From positions 2,259,001 to 2,323,000 of the forward strand of contig NZ_CP030126.1 in the NCBI RefSeq assembly GCF_003568845.1: a stretch of DNA of 64,000 bases. The letters run 5' to 3'. Source of the stretch: Indioceanicola profundi. Its GTDB lineage: Bacteria; Pseudomonadota; Alphaproteobacteria; Azospirillales; Azospirillaceae. The position numbers and the translations under genes were made by a program. Shown in pieces: positions 52,612 through 61,228 of this stretch (position 1 is its first letter; every line of letters begins with the position of its first letter). The notes under the pieces were generated by a model, which was given only the letters and a program-made list of their open reading frames with translations, ran no database searches and was not told where the DNA came from.

Positions 52612-53685
52612 TCAGGACAGCTTAGGGTCCAGGTCCACGCTCTGCCCTTCCCGCAAGCGCTCCGCCCCCCGGACCACAAGCCGGTCGCCCGGCGACAGCT
52701 CCCCTTCCACCGCGATCCATTCCCCCTGGGACAGGGCGGTGCGGACCGGTACGCGCTCGGCCGTGTTGTCGGACTTGATCCGATAGACATAGCTGCCGCC
52801 GCCGCGCAGCAGCAGCGCGTCGCGATGGATGGCCACCGCCTCCATCTCCGGCGCGGAGGGCAGCGCCACCTTCACGGCGGCGCCGACGATCCAGGCGCTG
52901 TCATCAGGCAGGTCCACCCGCACCTCGAAGGTGCGCGAGCGCTGTTCCCCGATCGGGATGATGCGGGAGATGCGCCCCTCCGCCGGGCCGCGGCTGCCCA
53001 CCAGTTGGACGGTCATGCCCTCCCGCAGGTTCGGTGCGATGGAGACCGGGGCCTGCACCCGCACTTCCAGATCGTCCACCGCCACCAGCCGGGCGATGCG
53101 GGCGCCGGGGCTGGAATATTCGCCGACCTCGATCATGCGCGCGGCGACCTGCCCGGCGAAGGGGGCCTTCACCACCGTCCGCTCCAGCTCCAGCGCTGTG
53201 CGCTCATGCGCGACCCGGGCCTGCACCAACTCCTGGGCCAGCACGTCGCGGCGGCTGGTGGCCTCCTCGAGCCGGCTCTGTGGGGCGCTGCCCCTCTTCG
53301 CCAGCTCCACCAGTCGGGTGACCTCGCGGGACTGGAAGTCGAGCTGCGCCTCCAGGCTGCGGATCTGGGCTTCCAGCCCCTGCAGTTCCAGCGCCAGGAC
53401 CCGGTCGTCCAGGCGCGCCACCGGCTCCCCTGCCGCGACCCGGGTTCCGGCCTCCGCTACCCAGACCACGCGACCCGACACCTCCGCCGCGATGGCCGCA
53501 TCCTGGCGGGAATGCACCGCGCCCGGCATTTCGATCTGCGGAGCCATGGTCCGGACCGCCACGGGCTGGACCACCACCTTGGCCGGGGGCGGCGCGCCCT
53601 GCGCCAACGCCGTGTTGGAGAGCGGCAGGCTGAGCGTCAGGGCGATGACGGCGACGGCCCCCAGGTTCGGGCGGTACTGCGGCAT
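52612..53685 (-). CDS. RND efflux periplasmic adaptor (membrane fusion protein)
   Basis: 357 aa. GGAGG sits 8 bp ahead of ATG 53685. Signal peptide 1-29 (ending NTALA-Q). Barrel-sandwich halves GAVHSRQDAAIAAEVSGRVV and VVKAPFAGQVAARMIEVGEY flank a coiled-coil hairpin (about 95-165). The beta-barrel and membrane-proximal parts follow. It links an RND permease to an outer-membrane channel; the permease gene is at 55179-58292 and no TolC-like gene is in the window. Confidence 0.92.
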   Translation of the reverse strand: MPQYRPNLGAVAVIALTLSLPLSNTALAQGAPPPAKVVVQPVAVRTMAPQIEMPGAVHSRQDAAIAAEVSGRVVWVAEAGTRVAAGEPVARLDDRVLALELQGLEAQIRSLEAQLDFQSREVTRLVELAKRGSAPQSRLEEATSRRDVLAQELVQARVAHERTALELERTVVKAPFAGQVAARMIEVGEYSSPGARIARLVAVDDLEVRVQAPVSIAPNLREGMTVQLVGSRGPAEGRISRIIPIGEQRSRTFEVRVDLPDDSAWIVGAAVKVALPSAPEMEAVAIHRDALLLRGGGSYVYRIKSDNTAERVPVRTALSQGEWIAVEGELSPGDRLVVRGAERLREGQSVDLDPKLS

Positions 53686-53763
53686 GTCGGGCGTCCTCCG
53701 GGAGGCTGGGGCGCATCGGCCCCCAATTGTTTCCGGATGCTTACCGGAAATCCCGTATCCGGG

Positions 53764-53794
53764 GCTTTTCACTTTGTAACCGGCGGGTAAATCC
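53764..53794. promoter_or_regulatory. Shared 31-bp element upstream of the RND adaptor
   Basis: Matches 26 of 31 positions with 58446-58476 upstream of the RND permease gene. Core GTAACnGnCGGGTAAATCC contains a GTAA direct repeat spaced 11 bp (one DNA turn). It lies 79-109 bp before the adaptor start, also upstream of the divergent DUF445 gene. Confidence 0.6.
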
Positions 53795-53866
53795 AACCCT
53801 TGGCCCTTTCGCCGCGCGGCGTGTTGGTGCTGTGATGGCCCCACCCGGAAGAATCACGGCGAGCCG

Positions 53867-55165
53867 ATGCCTACTGCGAATCTCCCCACCCTTCACCGTT
53901 CAATCGACGACGAAAACACCCGTGTGCTGGAGCAGGAACTGCGGCGCGACAAGCTGCTGGCAGGAAGCTGCCTGGGGCTGGCCGCCGCCGCCTGGGGCGC
54001 CACCCATGCGGTGGACCTGCCGCCCGGCTGGGCCGGCGCCCTGCGCGCGATGGCGGAGGCGGGGCTGGTCGGCGGGCTGGCCGACTGGTTCGCCGTCACC
54101 GCCCTGTTCCGTCGGCCGCTGGGCCTGCCCATTCCCCATACCGCGCTGATCCCCCGCAACCGCGACCGCATCGCCGATGGTATCGCCAATTACATCGACA
54201 ACGAGTTCCTTGCCCCCGACATGCTGGTGGAGCAGCTTCGCCGCATGGATTTGGCCGCACGTCTGGCCACGCTCCTGCATGACGAGGCCAGCCGCAACCG
54301 TGTGACGGAGCTGGCCATGCGCATGCTGCCCGGCATGATGGCGGAGGAGAAGGACGCCGCCATCCGAGGCGCGCTCACCCGCGCCGTGCAGGATGCCGTC
54401 AAGCAGGTGGACCTCCGCCGGCCATTGGCCCGCGTGCTGCGGGCCGTGGTGGAGAGCGACGCGCTGGAAGCCCTGCTGGGGGAGATGAGCGACAGGCTGA
54501 TCATGATGGTGCAGGACCGCCGCGCCTGGCTGCAGGAGGCGGTGGAGAAGCGGTCGCGCTGGTGGATTCCCTCTTCCGTCGACAAGCGGGTTGCCGGCAA
54601 CCTGGCCGATGCGGCGGTGGAGCACCTGTACGATCTGCGCAGCCCGCACAGCGATGTCGGCAAGGATCTGCGCCGCTGGCTGGCCGACCTGCCGGAGGAG
54701 GTGGAGCGCGGCGGCCCGATCGGGGAGCGGCTGACCAGCGTGGTCGGCGCGGCCCTGAACGACGCCAATTTCCAGCAGCTCGTGGACCGGGCCGTCGGCA
54801 CCATGCGCCGCATCGCGCTGGAGGATATGGAGCGGGATGACAGCCGCATCCGGGAGGTGATCGGCGCTGCCGTCGCCTCCCTCGCCGCGCAGCTTGACGA
54901 TGCGGAGCTGCGCGCCCGCATCAATGCCAGCCTGGAGGATGCCTTCGTCGCCGCCATCCCCCGCTGGCGGGAGAAGATCCGCACCTTCATCAGCGGCACG
55001 CTGCGCAGCCAGGATGTGGAGGACTTCACCCGCCGGCTGGAGCTGCGCGTCGGTCGGGACCTCCAGTATATCCGCATCAACGGCACCATCCTGGGGGCCG
55101 CCATCGGCGGGGTGCTGTGGCTGCTGAACGGATGGCTGGAGGGCGGCGGCCCGCTGTTCGGCTGA
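53867..55165 (+). CDS. DUF445 family membrane protein
   Basis: 432 aa. N-terminal hydrophobic segments (KLLAGSCLGLAAAAWGATHA, ALRAMAEAGLVGGLADWFAV) contain the family motif GGLADWFAVTALFRRPLGLP followed by IPHTALIPRNRDRIADGI. A long helical middle and a C-terminal hydrophobic segment (LGAAIGGVLWLLNGWL) complete it. Function unknown; some bacterial members are linked to envelope or phosphate phenotypes. It lies between the RND adaptor and permease genes on the opposite strand. Confidence 0.92.
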   Translation: MPTANLPTLHRSIDDENTRVLEQELRRDKLLAGSCLGLAAAAWGATHAVDLPPGWAGALRAMAEAGLVGGLADWFAVTALFRRPLGLPIPHTALIPRNRDRIADGIANYIDNEFLAPDMLVEQLRRMDLAARLATLLHDEASRNRVTELAMRMLPGMMAEEKDAAIRGALTRAVQDAVKQVDLRRPLARVLRAVVESDALEALLGEMSDRLIMMVQDRRAWLQEAVEKRSRWWIPSSVDKRVAGNLADAAVEHLYDLRSPHSDVGKDLRRWLADLPEEVERGGPIGERLTSVVGAALNDANFQQLVDRAVGTMRRIALEDMERDDSRIREVIGAAVASLAAQLDDAELRARINASLEDAFVAAIPRWREKIRTFISGTLRSQDVEDFTRRLELRVGRDLQYIRINGTILGAAIGGVLWLLNGWLEGGGPLFG

Positions 55166-55178
55166 CCGCCCCCGCTCC

Positions 55179-58100
55179 CTACTCCGCCGCCAGCAGCCCG
55201 GCCCCGTCATCCACCGGCCGGGCCTGTGCGCCCGGCAGGCTCTCGCCCAGGCGCAACAAAGCGGGCAGCAGCACCAGGGTGAAGATGGTGCTGACCGACA
55301 GGCCGCCCACGATCACCGCCGCGATGCCGCGGTAGATCACGCTGCCCTCGCCCGGCATGACCAGCAGCGGAAGCATGCCGGCGATGGTGGTCAGCGTGCT
55401 CATGAAGATCGGCCGGATGCGGGCGCGTAGCGCCTGCTCCACGGCATCCTTGCGGCTGAAGCCGTCGCGCTGGCAGGCGCGGGTCTCATCCACCAGCAGG
55501 ATGGCGTTGTTGACCACGATGCCGAGCAGGATGATGAAGCCGATCATCGTCAGCAGGTCCAACGGCTGGAAGGTCACCAGGTTGACGATGTCCAGCAGGG
55601 CCAACCCGCCTACCGTGGCCAGCGGGATGGAGATCATCACCAGCATGCTGTCCTTGGCTGAGCGGAAGACCAGCGCCATGAGCAGGAACAGGAGAGCCAG
55701 TGCGATCAGGAAATTCTGACCCATGGCCGCCACCGTCTCATCCAGCCGGTCGGCACTGCCGCCATAGGAGATGACGCCATCCGCCGGAAGGAAGCCGCGG
55801 AGCTGCGGTTCCGCTTCTTCCCGCAGCTTGGTCAGCACCTCTTCCAGTGCGATGCCCTCCTGCGGATCGAGGTTCAGGGTGATGGTGCGGCGGCCGTCGA
55901 TGCGCTGGATGTTGGAGGGGCCGACGGTGCGGGTCACGTCCACCAGCTCGCCCAGGGGAACGATCCCGCCCTCCGGCGTAGCCACGGGAATCGCCTCCAG
56001 CTCCTCCGGCCCGGTCCAGGACGGCGCGCGCAGAATGATGTCGAGCCGCTTGGCGCCGTCGAAATGCTCCCCGAGCCACAGCCCGTCGCCCAGAGCCCGA
56101 ACCACCTGCCCCACCTGCGGACGGGTCCAGCCCGCCTCCTGGATGCGGCGGTCGTTGGGCAGGATGTCGAGTTGGGGCTGCGACATCTCCGGATTGGGGT
56201 TGGCGAAGACGTTGACGCCGGGGAACATGTCGCGCAGGAGCTGCTGACCCTTCTCCGCCGCCTCCGCCAACGCCTCCGGGTCGCCGGCCTGGAGGTGGAC
56301 GGACACATTGCCCTCCGCCCCCAGCCCGCCGAACAGGTTGCCGCGGTTCGGGAAGGCGCCGACGTCGGGGAAGCCGGCCAGGATTTCGTTGCGGACGATT
56401 TCCATCATCTCGTCCAGGCGGCTTTCATCCTCCAGCCGCACGGCGAAGCTGCCGCCGCCGGGCCAGCCCAGCATGTAGAAGTTCTTGGCCTTGGGCTGCT
56501 TCTCGCCCGTGTAGTAGGGCATCATCCGGTCGACGATGACCTTCGCCACCTCGTCCCGCGACAGGTCGACGGAGGTGCCGACGGGGAAGTTCAGGAAGGC
56601 GTCCACGCTGTCGCGCTTCACCGGCGGCAGATAGGACAGGCTGGGGAACAGCAGCCAGGAACCGCCCAGGCTGGCCGCGATCAGCAGGCCGATCACCGCG
56701 ACGCGCCGCTTGGCATCGGCTGTCAGCCCCATGATCCGGCGGGTCAGCCACTCCACCCAGCGGGCATCCTCCGCATCCATCCGCGGCGTGACCTTCATCC
56801 AGCGCGCGGTCGCCACAGGCAGCACCGTGAGGCAGATCAGCAGCGACACCGACACGCCCACCGCGATGGTCAGCGCCAGATCGGCGAAGATCTGCCCCTC
56901 CACCTCGCGCATGAAGACGATGGGGACGAAGGTGATGACCGTGGTGGCGGTGGAGGCGACCAGGGCGGCCGTGACGCGGGACGCGCCGGAGAGGGATGCC
57001 TCGTCCGCCCCCTCCCCCCTGTCGCGGCGCTTCACGATGGCCTCCAGCACCACGATGGCGCTGTCGATCACCATGCCGACGCCGAAGGCCAGGCCGGCCA
57101 GGCTGATGACGTTGATCGACCGGCCGGTGAGCGACAGCAGGAAGAACAGGGCCAGCAGCGTGATCGGAATGACCATGCCGATCAGGAGGGTGAGCTGGGT
57201 TCGGCGCAGGAACAGCCAGAGCACGCCCACCGCCAGCACGATGCCGGCCAGCAGGTTGCCGGTCAGCAGCCCGATGGCGTTGTTGATGTAGACGCTGGGA
57301 TCGAAGGACTGGTTGTTGGTGAGGCCGCGCTCCGCCATCGGGCCGTCGCGCAGGCTCTCCATCAGCGCCTTCACCTCGGTCAGGGTGGCCAGCACATTGG
57401 CCCCGCTTTCCCGCATGATGCGCAGGCCGATGGCCTCGTTCCCGTTCTGGAAGGAATAAGTCCACTGGCGGCCCAGCGCCACCTTCACCTCCGCCACGTC
57501 GCCCAGCCGCACCGGGCGCCCTTCGCGCCATTCCAGCACCAGATCCGATAGCTGGTCGGGCTGGAAGCGACCCTTGAAGCGGACAGTGTAGATGCGGCGG
57601 CCATCATCCACGAAGCCGCCGGTCACGTCCTGCGCCCGTCCGACGAGCTGGGAGATGTGGGGGATGGTGATGCCGTACTGCGCGGCGCGGATGGGATCGA
57701 AGACGACCTGCACCTCCTCTTCCGGCGCGCCGAAGCCGCCGCCGAAATCCACGTCGGCAACGCCGTCGATGGCCTCGATCCGGGGAATCACCTCGTCCTG
57801 GAGCCATTGATAACTGTCCGCCAGCTCGCCCGGCGTGCCGGGAAGCTTCTGGACGAAGTAGTAGATCAGCGTGTCGTTGGCATTCCCGCCCCCCTGACCG
57901 CCGCCCATGATGATCCGCGGCGGATCGGCGTCGGCCGGCAGGGTCGGCATGCGGTTCAGGCGGCTGATCACCTCCAGCAGGGTTTCCTGCATGTCGGTGC
58001 CGATGTTGAACGTCAGGCTGACGAAGGCGGAGCCGGGATTGGCGAAACCCGCCATCTCATCCACGCCGGGCAGCCCATCCAGCACATCCTCCATGGGCTC

Positions 58101-58292
58101 GAGCAACTCCCGCTCGACCTCCTGGGGAGAGGCGGCGCGCCAGGACGCCTCGATGCCGATCTGCGGCTGCTCGATATCAGGGAAGAGCTGGACCGGAAGG
58201 GTCAGCACGCTCCAGATGCCCGCCACGGCCACCACCAGCACGGCGACCAGTAGGGCGGCCGGATTGCGCAGTCCCAGCCTGACAATGGACAT
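55179..58292 (-). CDS. RND efflux transporter permease
   Basis: 1037 aa with the 12-helix RND layout. The N-terminus MSIVRLGLRNPAALLVAVLV suits the HAE1/CzcA-like group; conserved GMVIDSAIVVLEAI (proton-relay region) and GIVVNNAILLVDET are present, along with periplasmic porter repeats (GVADVDFGGGFGAPEEEVQV). It probably exports drugs or other small toxic compounds with the adaptor above. It is preceded by 311 bp (58293-58603) shared with the divergent HAD gene; that gap holds the second copy of the 31-bp element. Confidence 0.94.
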   Translation of the reverse strand: MSIVRLGLRNPAALLVAVLVVAVAGIWSVLTLPVQLFPDIEQPQIGIEASWRAASPQEVERELLEPMEDVLDGLPGVDEMAGFANPGSAFVSLTFNIGTDMQETLLEVISRLNRMPTLPADADPPRIIMGGGQGGGNANDTLIYYFVQKLPGTPGELADSYQWLQDEVIPRIEAIDGVADVDFGGGFGAPEEEVQVVFDPIRAAQYGITIPHISQLVGRAQDVTGGFVDDGRRIYTVRFKGRFQPDQLSDLVLEWREGRPVRLGDVAEVKVALGRQWTYSFQNGNEAIGLRIMRESGANVLATLTEVKALMESLRDGPMAERGLTNNQSFDPSVYINNAIGLLTGNLLAGIVLAVGVLWLFLRRTQLTLLIGMVIPITLLALFFLLSLTGRSINVISLAGLAFGVGMVIDSAIVVLEAIVKRRDRGEGADEASLSGASRVTAALVASTATTVITFVPIVFMREVEGQIFADLALTIAVGVSVSLLICLTVLPVATARWMKVTPRMDAEDARWVEWLTRRIMGLTADAKRRVAVIGLLIAASLGGSWLLFPSLSYLPPVKRDSVDAFLNFPVGTSVDLSRDEVAKVIVDRMMPYYTGEKQPKAKNFYMLGWPGGGSFAVRLEDESRLDEMMEIVRNEILAGFPDVGAFPNRGNLFGGLGAEGNVSVHLQAGDPEALAEAAEKGQQLLRDMFPGVNVFANPNPEMSQPQLDILPNDRRIQEAGWTRPQVGQVVRALGDGLWLGEHFDGAKRLDIILRAPSWTGPEELEAIPVATPEGGIVPLGELVDVTRTVGPSNIQRIDGRRTITLNLDPQEGIALEEVLTKLREEAEPQLRGFLPADGVISYGGSADRLDETVAAMGQNFLIALALLFLLMALVFRSAKDSMLVMISIPLATVGGLALLDIVNLVTFQPLDLLTMIGFIILLGIVVNNAILLVDETRACQRDGFSRKDAVEQALRARIRPIFMSTLTTIAGMLPLLVMPGEGSVIYRGIAAVIVGGLSVSTIFTLVLLPALLRLGESLPGAQARPVDDGAGLLAAE

Positions 58293-58445
58293 GGCCTGGT
58301 CTCCCCCGGACGGCCCGGGGTCCCGTCGCCGCGGGCGGCGGCGCACTTCTGAGGAGGACCGTCGGGCACGGTCGGGCGGGTCCGGCGGGCAGAGCCCCGG
58401 TGGCCGTCCGACCGCACCGACACTAGGCCGCTTCCCGCAACGTGA

Positions 58446-58476
58446 GCGTTTCAGTATGTAACGGCCGGGTAAATCC
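58446..58476. promoter_or_regulatory. Shared 31-bp element upstream of the RND permease
   Basis: Second copy of the element at 53764-53794, same orientation, 154-184 bp before the permease start. Five mismatches lie outside or within the central G/C spacer; TTTCA, GTAAC and CGGGTAAATCC are kept. Confidence 0.6.
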
Positions 58477-58603: not shown

Positions 58604-59209
58604 ATGTTGGACATTGAAGCACTGTTGCGGCAGAGCCGCGCCATCATCTTCGACTGCGACGGCACGCTGATCGACACGCTGCCGGTCTACGCCCGCGCCT
58701 GGGGCATCGGCCTCGGCTCATCCGGCACGGAGATGCCGCCGGACTGGTATCTGAGCCGCGCCGGCAACTCCGAATATGTGCTGATGGACCAGTTCGAGAC
58801 ATATGCCGGGGTGAAGCTGGACCGCGGAGAAGTCATCCGCCTGATGCGGGCCGCCTTCCTGGAGGGGCTGGACCAGGTCCGTGAGATCGGGGCGGTGGCC
58901 GCCATCGCCCGCCGGCACCATGGCCGCCTGCCCATGGCCGTGGCCTCCGGCGGGTCCCGCGCCATCGTCACCGCCAGCCTGGAGGCAACCGGCCTGACCA
59001 CCCTGTTCGACGCCGTGGTCACCATCGACGATGTCGGCCGCTCCAAGCCCGAACCCGACCTCTTCCTGGAAGCCGCCCGCCGCCTGGGCGTTTCCCCGTC
59101 GGATTGCCTGGTGTTCGAGGACACCAGGGAGGGCCTGGAGGCCGCCCATCGCGCCGGCATGAGGGCGGTGGACGTGGCGGATGTGCTGAGTGTGAACGGC
59201 CGAGCCTGA
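58604..59209 (+). CDS. HAD superfamily hydrolase (beta-phosphoglucomutase-like)
   Basis: 201 aa. Motif I FDCDGTLID with D17/D19, motif II AVASGGS, motif III K in GRSKPEPD and motif IV VFEDTREG. Cap domain between motif I and II (about 25-90). Typical HAD-IA phosphatases remove phosphate from sugars or by-products; the substrate is unknown. Start ATG 58604. It is the last core gene before the accessory segment. Confidence 0.9.
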   Translation: MLDIEALLRQSRAIIFDCDGTLIDTLPVYARAWGIGLGSSGTEMPPDWYLSRAGNSEYVLMDQFETYAGVKLDRGEVIRLMRAAFLEGLDQVREIGAVAAIARRHHGRLPMAVASGGSRAIVTASLEATGLTTLFDAVVTIDDVGRSKPEPDLFLEAARRLGVSPSDCLVFEDTREGLEAAHRAGMRAVDVADVLSVNGRA

Positions 59210-59405: not shown

Positions 59406-59434
59406 TTGACATTCGATTGCATTGTACATACATT
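59406..59434 (+). promoter_or_regulatory. Promoter of the transposon-borne toxin-antitoxin pair
   Basis: TTGACA (59406-59411), a 17-bp spacer and TACATT (59429-59434), 26 bp before the antitoxin ATG. The palindrome TGTACA overlapping the -10 (59424-59429 region) could be the antitoxin's own operator. Confidence 0.6.
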
Positions 59435-59460
59435 GGGTTACGCCAACACGGAGGTGTTCC

Positions 59461-59730
59461 ATGCGTCAGTCAGTCACCATGCGGCTTGATCCCAGCGTGT
59501 TGAGTGCGGCCCGCAACAAGGCAACGCACGATAACCGCAGCCTCACGAATTACGTAGAAACGCTCATGCGGAAAGACCTTCAGATGCGACCCGATGAGCC
59601 TTCAATCGAAGTTATCGCGCCGCCCGACATCCGCCGGGCCGTTGCTGTTCCATTGCCGGGCGAGACCGAAGAAGAACGTCAGCGCCGTGACGCGATCTTC
59701 CATGCGGTGCTCGATGCTGGCGGCTACTGA
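59461..59730 (+). CDS. Ribbon-helix-helix antitoxin-like protein (transposon cargo)
   Basis: 89 aa. GGAGG is 9 bp upstream of ATG 59461. The N-terminal RHH fold is visible in SVTMRLDPSVLSAARNKATH and NRSLTNYVETLMRKDL (strand then two helices). The C-terminal half is acidic and Pro-rich (PLPGETEEERQRRDAIFHAV), as in antitoxins that neutralise a partner. Its stop overlaps the next gene's start (TGATG). The composition is lower in G+C than the core genes. Likely represses its own promoter. Confidence 0.75.
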   Translation: MRQSVTMRLDPSVLSAARNKATHDNRSLTNYVETLMRKDLQMRPDEPSIEVIAPPDIRRAVAVPLPGETEEERQRRDAIFHAVLDAGGY

Positions 59731-60236
59731 TGCAGCCGCCCTTTGAGCCTCGTCAATTCGTCTGGTGTCAGTTCCCCTACTCTGAAGAACCCCTTCGGCC
59801 GGGACCCGATGAGCATGTTGGATATGTGGCCGACATCCGGCGGATCGACGGCAACGCCCACTTAACGGTCATGTCTCTCTACACGACGACCACCAAATGG
59901 GAACCTGGTGTGCGGCTTCCTCTCGGCGTAATCCCCGTCGATCCCGCATTGGCCGCGAAGATGAACCAGAAGGGGTTCGTCATGGACGCGCGGCGAGTTG
60001 CTTTCATTCCCGTGAACAACGGGTTCTTCCCTCGTTTGAAGAACCCGGACAAGGGTATCGTTCACACGGCGTCGCTGAAGTTTCATACGCTCGTAGAGAA
60101 CACGCTGATGGAATTGGCAAAACGCCCGGAACTTATCATCAAGCTCGGGCCTGATGTACCGGGAATGGCACGTCGCCCCTCACGCTCTCAACGAGATGAG
60201 GATAGTGGTCCGTCGGGTCCATCTGGCATGTTCTAG
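59730..60236 (+). CDS. PemK/MazF-like toxin candidate (transposon cargo)
   Basis: 168 aa, longer than the usual 105-120 of MazF. Residues 8-55 (FVWCQFPYSEEPLRPGPDEH, then HLTVMSLYTTTTKW) resemble the MazF/PemK SH3-like barrel start; GFVMDARRVAFIPVNNGFF matches the block that usually reads 's-v--dqir-vd'. The last 25 residues are polar and may be altered by the element's own evolution. By analogy an mRNA endonuclease; catalytic residues are not certain. The start overlaps the antitoxin stop, supporting a TA operon. Confidence 0.6.
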   Translation: MQPPFEPRQFVWCQFPYSEEPLRPGPDEHVGYVADIRRIDGNAHLTVMSLYTTTTKWEPGVRLPLGVIPVDPALAAKMNQKGFVMDARRVAFIPVNNGFFPRLKNPDKGIVHTASLKFHTLVENTLMELAKRPELIIKLGPDVPGMARRPSRSQRDEDSGPSGPSGMF

Positions 60237-60237
60237 C

Positions 60238-61179
60238 TCAAGCCACTCTGGCCCTGATGTCGTCGTAGGTCGCTGGTCCAACCGCCACGCCAATCCCAAT
60301 CAGTCGCTCGAAGGCCGAGCGGTAGCTGTGACGCCGGTTCCAGCGAAACACGAACTCGTTCAGATAGGCGTCCAGATACTTCCGCCGGAAGCCATGGAAG
60401 ACGCCGATACCCCAGCGTTTCAGGTTCGAGAAGACGCGATGAATCCACGGCATGATGATGTGTGCAGCCATCTTGCCGATGACGCGCGGCGTGTGATCGA
60501 AGCCGTTCAGCCCGTAGTAGCTCTTGTTGTCATCGGTCCAGATGTGGCTACCGCCCTCGATGTGGTCTTGAATGAAGCCTTTCAAGGTCTCGCCTCGATA
60601 GTCCGGGATGACCTTCAGCCTGATGCGGCCGGGCTTGTTGCCCGCCTCCAGTTCGACAGCACCGACGACGGCGATCTTGCCGATGGGGCTCCGGCCCTGG
60701 CCGCCGCCGATGGGGTCGTCGAGCGTGCGGAAGGGCAGTGTCGTCTCATCGACCTCGACATCGCCGGACAACATCGTGCGGTCAGGATCGATCATGGCCC
60801 GGCGCAGCTTGTGCAGCAGCAGCCAGGCCGTCTTATAGGAGCCGAGATCCAGCTTTGCCTGTAGCTGGAGGGCGGACATCCCGTTCGAGTGCGTCGCCAT
60901 CAGGTGTGCCGCCAGAAACCATGTGCGCAGCGGCACCTTGGTGCCGTGCATGAAGGTTCCGGCCGTCACGGAAGTTTGCTGCCCGCAATCTCGGCATTCC
61001 CAGGTCCATCGCTTGGTCTGGAGCTTCCACCCGCAAACGGAGGCGCACTCCGGGCAGATGAAGCCATCAGGCCAGCGGCGCTGCTCCAGATAGGCGGCGC
61101 AAGCGTCGTCATCCGGGAACCGGTCCTTGAAGGATTGGAGCGATGGCGGCCGGTTCGTGCTGTTCCAACGGGCTGGCAT
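60238..61179 (-). CDS. IS1595-family (ISXO2-like) transposase
   Basis: 313 aa from ATG 61179 (a TTG at 61194 is an alternative). N-terminal zinc ribbon FICPEC ... WECRDCGQQTS, then the ISXO2-like DDE domain: VEVDETTLPF, HIWTDDNKSYYG and YLNEFVFRWNRRHSYRSAFE, where the third catalytic residue of the family lies. Full length without frameshifts. It is convergent with the toxin gene and within IRs at 59361 and 61275. Confidence 0.93.
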   Translation of the reverse strand: MPARWNSTNRPPSLQSFKDRFPDDDACAAYLEQRRWPDGFICPECASVCGWKLQTKRWTWECRDCGQQTSVTAGTFMHGTKVPLRTWFLAAHLMATHSNGMSALQLQAKLDLGSYKTAWLLLHKLRRAMIDPDRTMLSGDVEVDETTLPFRTLDDPIGGGQGRSPIGKIAVVGAVELEAGNKPGRIRLKVIPDYRGETLKGFIQDHIEGGSHIWTDDNKSYYGLNGFDHTPRVIGKMAAHIIMPWIHRVFSNLKRWGIGVFHGFRRKYLDAYLNEFVFRWNRRHSYRSAFERLIGIGVAVGPATYDDIRARVA

Positions 61180-61228
61180 AGCCAAAGCCTGCAATTCCCG
61201 GCGCGGAGAGTCAATCAGCCTGCCGAGG

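Follow-up and report, generated by a model that had tools for sequence, protein, structure and literature searches.

According to the available text of the papers cited here, from which the comparisons with other systems below are also drawn, OmpR sites are 20 bp long and consist of two 10-bp sub-elements in tandem (PMC3050692), with the consensus TTTTACTTTTTG(A/T)AACATAT and a central GXXAC in Escherichia coli (PMC5559549). The CpxR box is GTAAA-N4-8-GTAAA, with a spacer of N6 at mexA, and CpxR, which can act irrespective of the orientation of its site, activates MexAB-OprM in Pseudomonas (PMC5063474). Motifs of OmpR-family regulators are also described in Alphaproteobacteria, namely TGA-N8-TGA for CenR (PMC9275681) and TTGC-N3-GCAA for Caulobacter ChvI (PMC9731502), and the CpxR homologue SMb21561 of Sinorhizobium meliloti, the expression of which is raised in a tolC mutant and the targets of which are called unknown, has GTAAA-N5-GTAAA upstream of its own operon (PMC2912261). 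Here we analyze an element that is found twice in a 64,000-nt stretch of the Indioceanicola profundi genome (contig NZ_CP030126.1, positions 2,259,001–2,323,000, forward strand; this whole stretch is termed the window and the 5.37-Mb genome is labelled G000), upstream of the two separated genes of a resistance-nodulation-division (RND) efflux pump, and which by analogy suggests an operator that would work like an OmpR or CpxR box.

The paired element and its four-unit array

Both components of an RND pump are encoded in the window by the evidence of Pfam, a HlyD-type periplasmic adaptor subunit (52,612–53,685, minus strand; HlyD_D23/HlyD_3 and RND_mfp, from Pfam and NCBIfam profile matches) and an ACR_tran permease of 1037 aa (55,179–58,292, minus strand; under every NCBIfam subfamily cut-off). 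They are separated by an opposite-strand gene for a 432-aa DUF445 protein (53,867–55,165, plus strand; PF04286, E 1.7e-83), and a HAD hydrolase gene (58,604–59,209, plus strand; Pfam) is divergent to the permease gene. Element 1 (31 bp, 53,764–53,794, plus strand) lies between the adaptor and DUF445 genes and element 2 (31 bp, 58,446–58,476, plus strand) between the permease and HAD genes, both of these being divergent intergenic regions, and the two elements, which have the same orientation, share 26 of 31 bases. When these regions (181 and 311 bp, compared in both orientations) were shuffled 1000 times with their dinucleotide composition preserved, the closest 31-base pairing had 23 identities. 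In each element a GTAAC and a GTAAA start 11 bp apart (53,776–53,780 and 53,787–53,791 in element 1; 58,458–58,462 and 58,469–58,473 in element 2), preceded by the half-site TTTTC (53,766–53,770) or GTTTC (58,448–58,452), respectively. The match, the gene arrangement and the 11-bp repeat had all been claimed in an initial annotation made from the DNA letters of the window, and all are reproduced.

The conserved block runs about 22 bp past element 1 on the pump side, to 53,742. When the DUF445-side region is aligned from five genomes (G000, G027, G009, G002 and G032, the last two of which have no adaptor orthologue at E ≤ 1e-50), 26 of the 35 invariant columns fall within 53 positions (53,742–53,794), which span an array of half-sites and a −10-like sequence. 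Read on the strand of the pump genes, the two GTAA units open, by comparison of sequences, a series of four units spaced at one helical turn, TTTAC-(11)-GTTAC-(10)-GAAAM-(11)-GWWAC, an array which is found at all eight adaptor genes identified in the family. The first two units there are the search pattern and match by construction; the third is GAAAA or GAAAC and the fourth GATAC, GTAAC or GTTAC, at constant offsets, such that all eight adaptor arrays have the GXXAC/TTTAC half-sites at about one helical turn that are expected of an OmpR-type tandem operator. On the minus strand of the window, the extended block toward the adaptor (53,740–53,794) reads TTTAC(+11)GTTAC(+10)GAAAA(+11)GATAC and then a putative −10, CGGTAAG (53,740–53,746), as judged from the alignment, and the extended array toward the permease (58,420–58,476) reads TTTAC(+11)GTTAC(+10)GAAAC(+11)GTTGC, with its last unit at 58,437–58,441, and then a putative −10, CCTAGTGT (58,420–58,427). 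The later units differ at permeases, where the window has GTTGC and G027 has GTAAC and GTTTC.

This array is like the EnvZ/OmpR boxes of enterobacteria in its tandem TTTAC and GXXAC half-sites, which also occur there in serial copies upstream of the promoters of envelope targets (PMC5559549, PMC3050692), and unlike them in its 11-10-11 spacing, its G+C-rich spacers, its only about three targets and its regulator, which is a candidate. Because the first spacing is 11 and the spacer is G+C-rich, the 20-bp consensus of two 10-bp units is missed, and hence the element is said to resemble an OmpR box and is not filed as one. With the CpxR boxes at mexA and muxA of Pseudomonas (PMC5063474) it shares GTAAC/A-N6-GTAAA, a place at RND pump promoters and discovery by inter-species promoter comparison. 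Among the 20 sites collected here GTAAC-N6-GTAAA occurs in 19 and GTTAC-N6-GTAAA in one, which is partly by construction, and the last base of the first unit is C rather than A. The Pseudomonas system differs in that DUF445 is an extra target here and in that none of the 15 regulators scored (of 17 in the genome) reaches the CpxR cut-off, the best having 191.5 against 341 bits; the element is for that reason not filed as a CpxR box. Control of an RND pump by OmpR is also described for AcrAB of Yersinia enterocolitica, which is another pump in another organism, and the available text mentions no split pump (PMC4403819). CenR and Caulobacter ChvI are OmpR-family regulators with envelope regulons in the same bacterial class, and their motifs were rejected as descriptions of the element since they differ from TTTAC-N6-GTTACA and fail to match the invariant alignment columns. 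The SMb21561 case is comparable in its GTAAA-N5-GTAAA match in an alphaproteobacterium and in the raised expression in a tolC mutant, but the available text gives it no link to RND pumps or DUF445 (PMC2912261).

Specificity and distribution in the family

With up to three mismatches, the pattern proposed in the initial annotation matches the window twice (0.04 matches expected) and the whole genome at two perfect sites, one site with two mismatches and ten with three, compared to five for a reversed control pattern. Across 59 genomes (G000 and relatives), with up to two mismatches, 16 contain a match and 14 contain a match to the control. Such loose matches are near chance level, and the evidence therefore rests on position and on the fuller array. 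A sequence-only model (R1) was built from 20 sites gathered with the pattern TTTAC-N6-GT[TA]AC, so the invariance of these letters is partly by construction; support independent of the pattern comes from scoring with a core taken from the window, from the alignment of the five upstream regions and from the absence of other sites.

The element is linked near-exclusively to the adaptor, permease and DUF445 genes. Elements 1 and 2 score 29.0 and 30.3 bits with the model, of which both are part, and the genome contains nothing beyond these two sites at E ≤ 10 (150 of 787 candidates scored). In 12 genomes (150 of 491–1569 first-look candidates scored per genome) all 17 sites with at least 21.5 bits lie at one of the three genes, and the next site has 17.8 bits. 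Among 82 genomes of the family (E ≤ 0.05; 86 of 328–1531 candidates scored per genome, with stricter filters) 13 have matches. These comprise three weaker sites and 21 with at least 21.5 bits, the latter again all at the three genes; overlapping contig ends in G105 make one of the 21 appear twice. High scores are expected since the model was built from these sites, and the informative part is the absence of others, with the proviso that partial scoring of candidates may miss weak sites. The weaker matches seen are a TTTAC-N6-GTTACA a few tens of bp 5′ of an M13 peptidase gene (PF05649; L147, G101:C29:269189–269214; 17.8 bits), a site between convergent genes in G018 (16.5 bits), one in G103 near a gene read by eye as fabD (16.4 bits) and one in G002 between ilvC-like and peptidase-like genes (15.9 bits). 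One pattern search of 13 genomes placed three of its 18 matches elsewhere (G018:C29, G102:C1 and G002:C1:2030400), and the control gave one match. The genome pattern scan and the own-genome and family-wide model searches together rule out a dispersed repeat, and the element is kept at the same genes across relatives, so that on both points the initial annotation holds.

The most consistent owner of the element, as judged from its distribution, is the DUF445 gene, which is no bystander. DUF445 is found in 28 of the 82 genomes. When upstream regions are scored for a core of 17 positions taken from the window alone, at least 14 are matched at the DUF445 loci of 13/14 DUF445 genomes of the genera g1, g3, g10 and g13 (own genome included; G100 fails) and of 0/14 in other genera, and in a background of 467,704 strand-bases from unrelated loci 37 score 12, four score 13 and none reaches 14. 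In six relatives (G012, G018, G101, G103, G104 and G105) 57 bp separate the first base of TGTAAC from the DUF445 ATG, compared to 92 bp in the window, and the upstream gene, read by eye, runs in the same direction with its stop codon within the element; with a codirectional neighbor, DUF445 is the evident target there. The element also persists in G002, G022, G032 and G102, genomes that yielded no pump orthologue at limits of E ≤ 1e-50 for the adaptor (up to 25 candidates scored per genome) and E ≤ 1e-200 for the permease (up to nine). As a side observation, a full four-half-site array in G002 (L132/L033) points at a gene, read as CBS-domain-like, about 330 bp away, and no remnant of an adaptor was found at that locus.

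At the same limits, an adaptor orthologue is present in 8/82 genomes and a permease orthologue in 9/82. TTTAC-N6-GTTAC lies upstream of all eight adaptors, five of which match at least 14 positions of the window core. No GTAA/TTAC pair of this kind was found in the 500 bp upstream of the matches to adaptor homologues of Gammaproteobacteria (L102–L106). The order adaptor-DUF445-permease of the window recurs in G009, and in G027 the divergent adaptor and DUF445 genes are close to the end of one contig, with the permease gene inside another. In G012, G018 and G104 the permease and adaptor genes are neighbors on the same strand, an element occupies the gap between the two, and DUF445 is elsewhere; overlapping contig ends suggest the same adjacency in G105.

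The window-type element stands at the permease gene only in G000 and G027. A palindromic form, TGTAAC-N5-GTTACA with up to one mismatch, occurs in 6/13 genomes searched (G103 being outside this search) and always at the permease. About 60 bp after it are strongly alike in the permease upstream regions of genus g13 (L070, L072–L075 and L077), running from ATTAACCAAGCCCAACGGACAGGTTACA on to TATGGTG. The adjacent pump genes of G012, G018 and G104 each keep an element of their own, that of the permease being of this second form, and hence the presence of two elements cannot be put down simply to the splitting of the genes.

The initial annotation proposed that one regulator keeps the two pump halves co-expressed, and perhaps also the two divergent genes. 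Comparison of sequences supports co-regulation of adaptor, permease and DUF445 by a shared regulator, with the restriction that the same element stands at both pump halves only in this genome and one relative. Of the divergent genes DUF445 is retained as a target and the HAD gene is unsupported and was rejected: with the HAD protein as tblastn query, no match below E 0.67 was obtained at the permease loci of 8/8 relatives, each taken with up to 1.5 kb of flanking DNA.

Candidate regulator and alternative readings

The resemblance of the tandem half-sites to those of the OmpR/CpxR type leads us to propose a response regulator, and this is probably a member of the OmpR family. The genome encodes 17 PF00486 proteins, 15 of which were scored against NCBIfam (all except L122 and L123, with L115 as a truncated protein). 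Six of them (L110, L114, L115, L118, L119 and L121) are reciprocally conserved in five of five element-bearing relatives tested (tblastn), in a profile that used 88 of the 102 listed PF00486 places in six relatives, the other 14 all having open frames of at least 465 codons. L114 (about G000:C1:1269.4–1270.1 kb), which is followed by a histidine kinase gene (HAMP, HisKA, HATPase_c), has the top OmpR and CpxR scores among those scored, while L119 is above the CtrA cut-off and L109, outside the six, above that for PhoB. The PDB structures closest to the DNA-binding domain of L114 are of OmpR (RSIDVQISRLRR identical), and the chains are presumably those of the E. coli protein. As this comparison was made for L114 only, other regulators might match OmpR as well, and L114 in particular is a candidate to which we give somewhat less than an even chance. 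An autoregulated regulator gene was sought as a clue and none was found, with the limits on start codons given below.

We consider it somewhat better than an even chance that both elements are copies of one operator, an OmpR/PhoB-family response-regulator array that activates the pump promoters, likeliest via L114. Once phosphorylated, the regulator would occupy the tandem half-sites along a single face of the helix, the bound array would end just upstream of the −10 sequences of the adaptor and permease genes and so activate their promoters, and the same array would from its other side regulate the divergent DUF445 gene. Activation rather than repression is predicted because the array ends where the −35 would lie, and the −10 positions are likewise predicted. 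Adaptor, permease and DUF445 would together form a small envelope regulon, to which some relatives may add a RidA-like protein. Such a protein (PF01042, with a signal-like start by eye) is found at E ≤ 1e-30 in 3/13 genomes searched (L149/L252 in G027, L150/L253 in G012 and L254 in G101), in each case with a weak copy of the array upstream (14.3–14.7 bits) that is at chance level alone (E 0.18–0.25). G012 and G101 have almost identical DNA there, so that about two of the three cases are independent, and the RidA-like protein is a possible further target.

Several points weigh against an activating OmpR-type array. The half-sites are spaced 11-10-11 rather than by 10 as in the cited OmpR consensus, so few targets are unusual for a global OmpR, and the binding of a regulator and its control of the genes are both predicted from sequence. 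L114 is below the NCBIfam cut-offs for OmpR (279.6 vs. 331 bits) and CpxR (191.5 vs. 341), all six conserved regulators are also present in G100, which lacks the element, so that the profile does not discriminate between them, and no OmpR-family gene of the genome has a GTAA/TTAC pair of this spacing in its 300 bp upstream, where the start was taken as the first ATG, which is wrong at least for the truncated L115. The arrays themselves also vary. The G027 permease array, with its later units GTAAC and GTTTC, has no clear −10, and the adaptor loci of G104, G018 and G101 match only 12–13/17 core positions, a level that occurs in the background, and rest on the array. The DUF445 arrays of eight relatives have altered later half-sites: the six with a codirectional neighbor have GACAC or GATAC, one base further along, in third place and GTCTC or GACTC in fourth, and in G022 and G102 neither unit is recognizable. 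Lastly, 7/9 permeases carry within 450 bp upstream TGTAAC-N5-GTTACA instead, a form missed by the model.

This last point also speaks for a dedicated dimeric repressor of the TetR or MarR kind, in which case TGTAAC-N5-GTTACA would represent the original palindrome, from which TTTAC-N6-GTTACA had degenerated. The TGTAAC/GTTACA of the seven permeases is a perfect inverted repeat, its restriction to the permease gene has been described above, and a very small target set fits a regulator of this type. At the adaptor and DUF445 genes, however, TTTAC-N6-GTTACA is a direct repeat and further half-sites follow at 10–11 bp, and in the G000, G009 and G027 loci, read by eye, none of the immediate neighbors of the pump genes was recognized as a regulator gene. 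Overall we regard such a repressor as unlikely, if by no means negligible.

It is also conceivable that the element really belongs to DUF445 and that the divergent adaptor-DUF445 arrangement and promoter copying account for its presence at the pump, with no joint control. The 13 of 14 DUF445 genes with the element, four of them in genomes without a detected pump, are what this would produce, yet adaptors located away from DUF445 (G012, G018, G101, G104 and G105) keep their own copy with four half-sites and a conserved −10-like sequence, and G000 and G027 have a separate copy at the permease, which makes this explanation improbable. The near-control level of loose pattern matches elsewhere is all that speaks for chance similarity or a dispersed repeat, to which we give almost no credence given that the shuffles reach 23 against the 26 observed and that the element is conserved at the same genes across four genera.

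Neighboring genes and significance

Beyond the HAD gene the window contains a small gene pair (59,422–60,236) and, about 1 kb past the HAD gene, an IS1595-type transposase (60,238–61,194, minus strand; PF12762 and PF12760). A small gene pair also lies 5′ of the G027 permease (L015, 1535–2262), and one member of each pair shares VIAPPDIR...AGGY by eye. The four proteins have no Pfam family above cut-off, and that these are toxin-antitoxin pairs is a guess. The predicted structure of the DUF445 protein has a pTM of 0.32.

Boxes for response regulators at efflux pumps are a known kind of system, and what seems new is the target set and the link to DUF445. In the open-access literature, judged mostly by titles, no report of this target set or of a regulatory link between DUF445 and efflux was found, nor, among the matches listed, any title on pump regulation in these genera. 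According to Pfam the function of DUF445 is unknown, and a conserved, near-exclusive putative operator in common with an RND pump offers a concrete clue to that function. We tentatively suggest, at clearly less than an even chance, that a dedicated micro-regulon ties the RND pump to DUF445, which would work with the pump or answer the same envelope stress. If this is true, promoter arrays evolve semi-independently, so pump genes could separate and even be interrupted without losing joint control. The split pump of I. profundi would also illustrate neatly how separate operators can preserve co-regulation.

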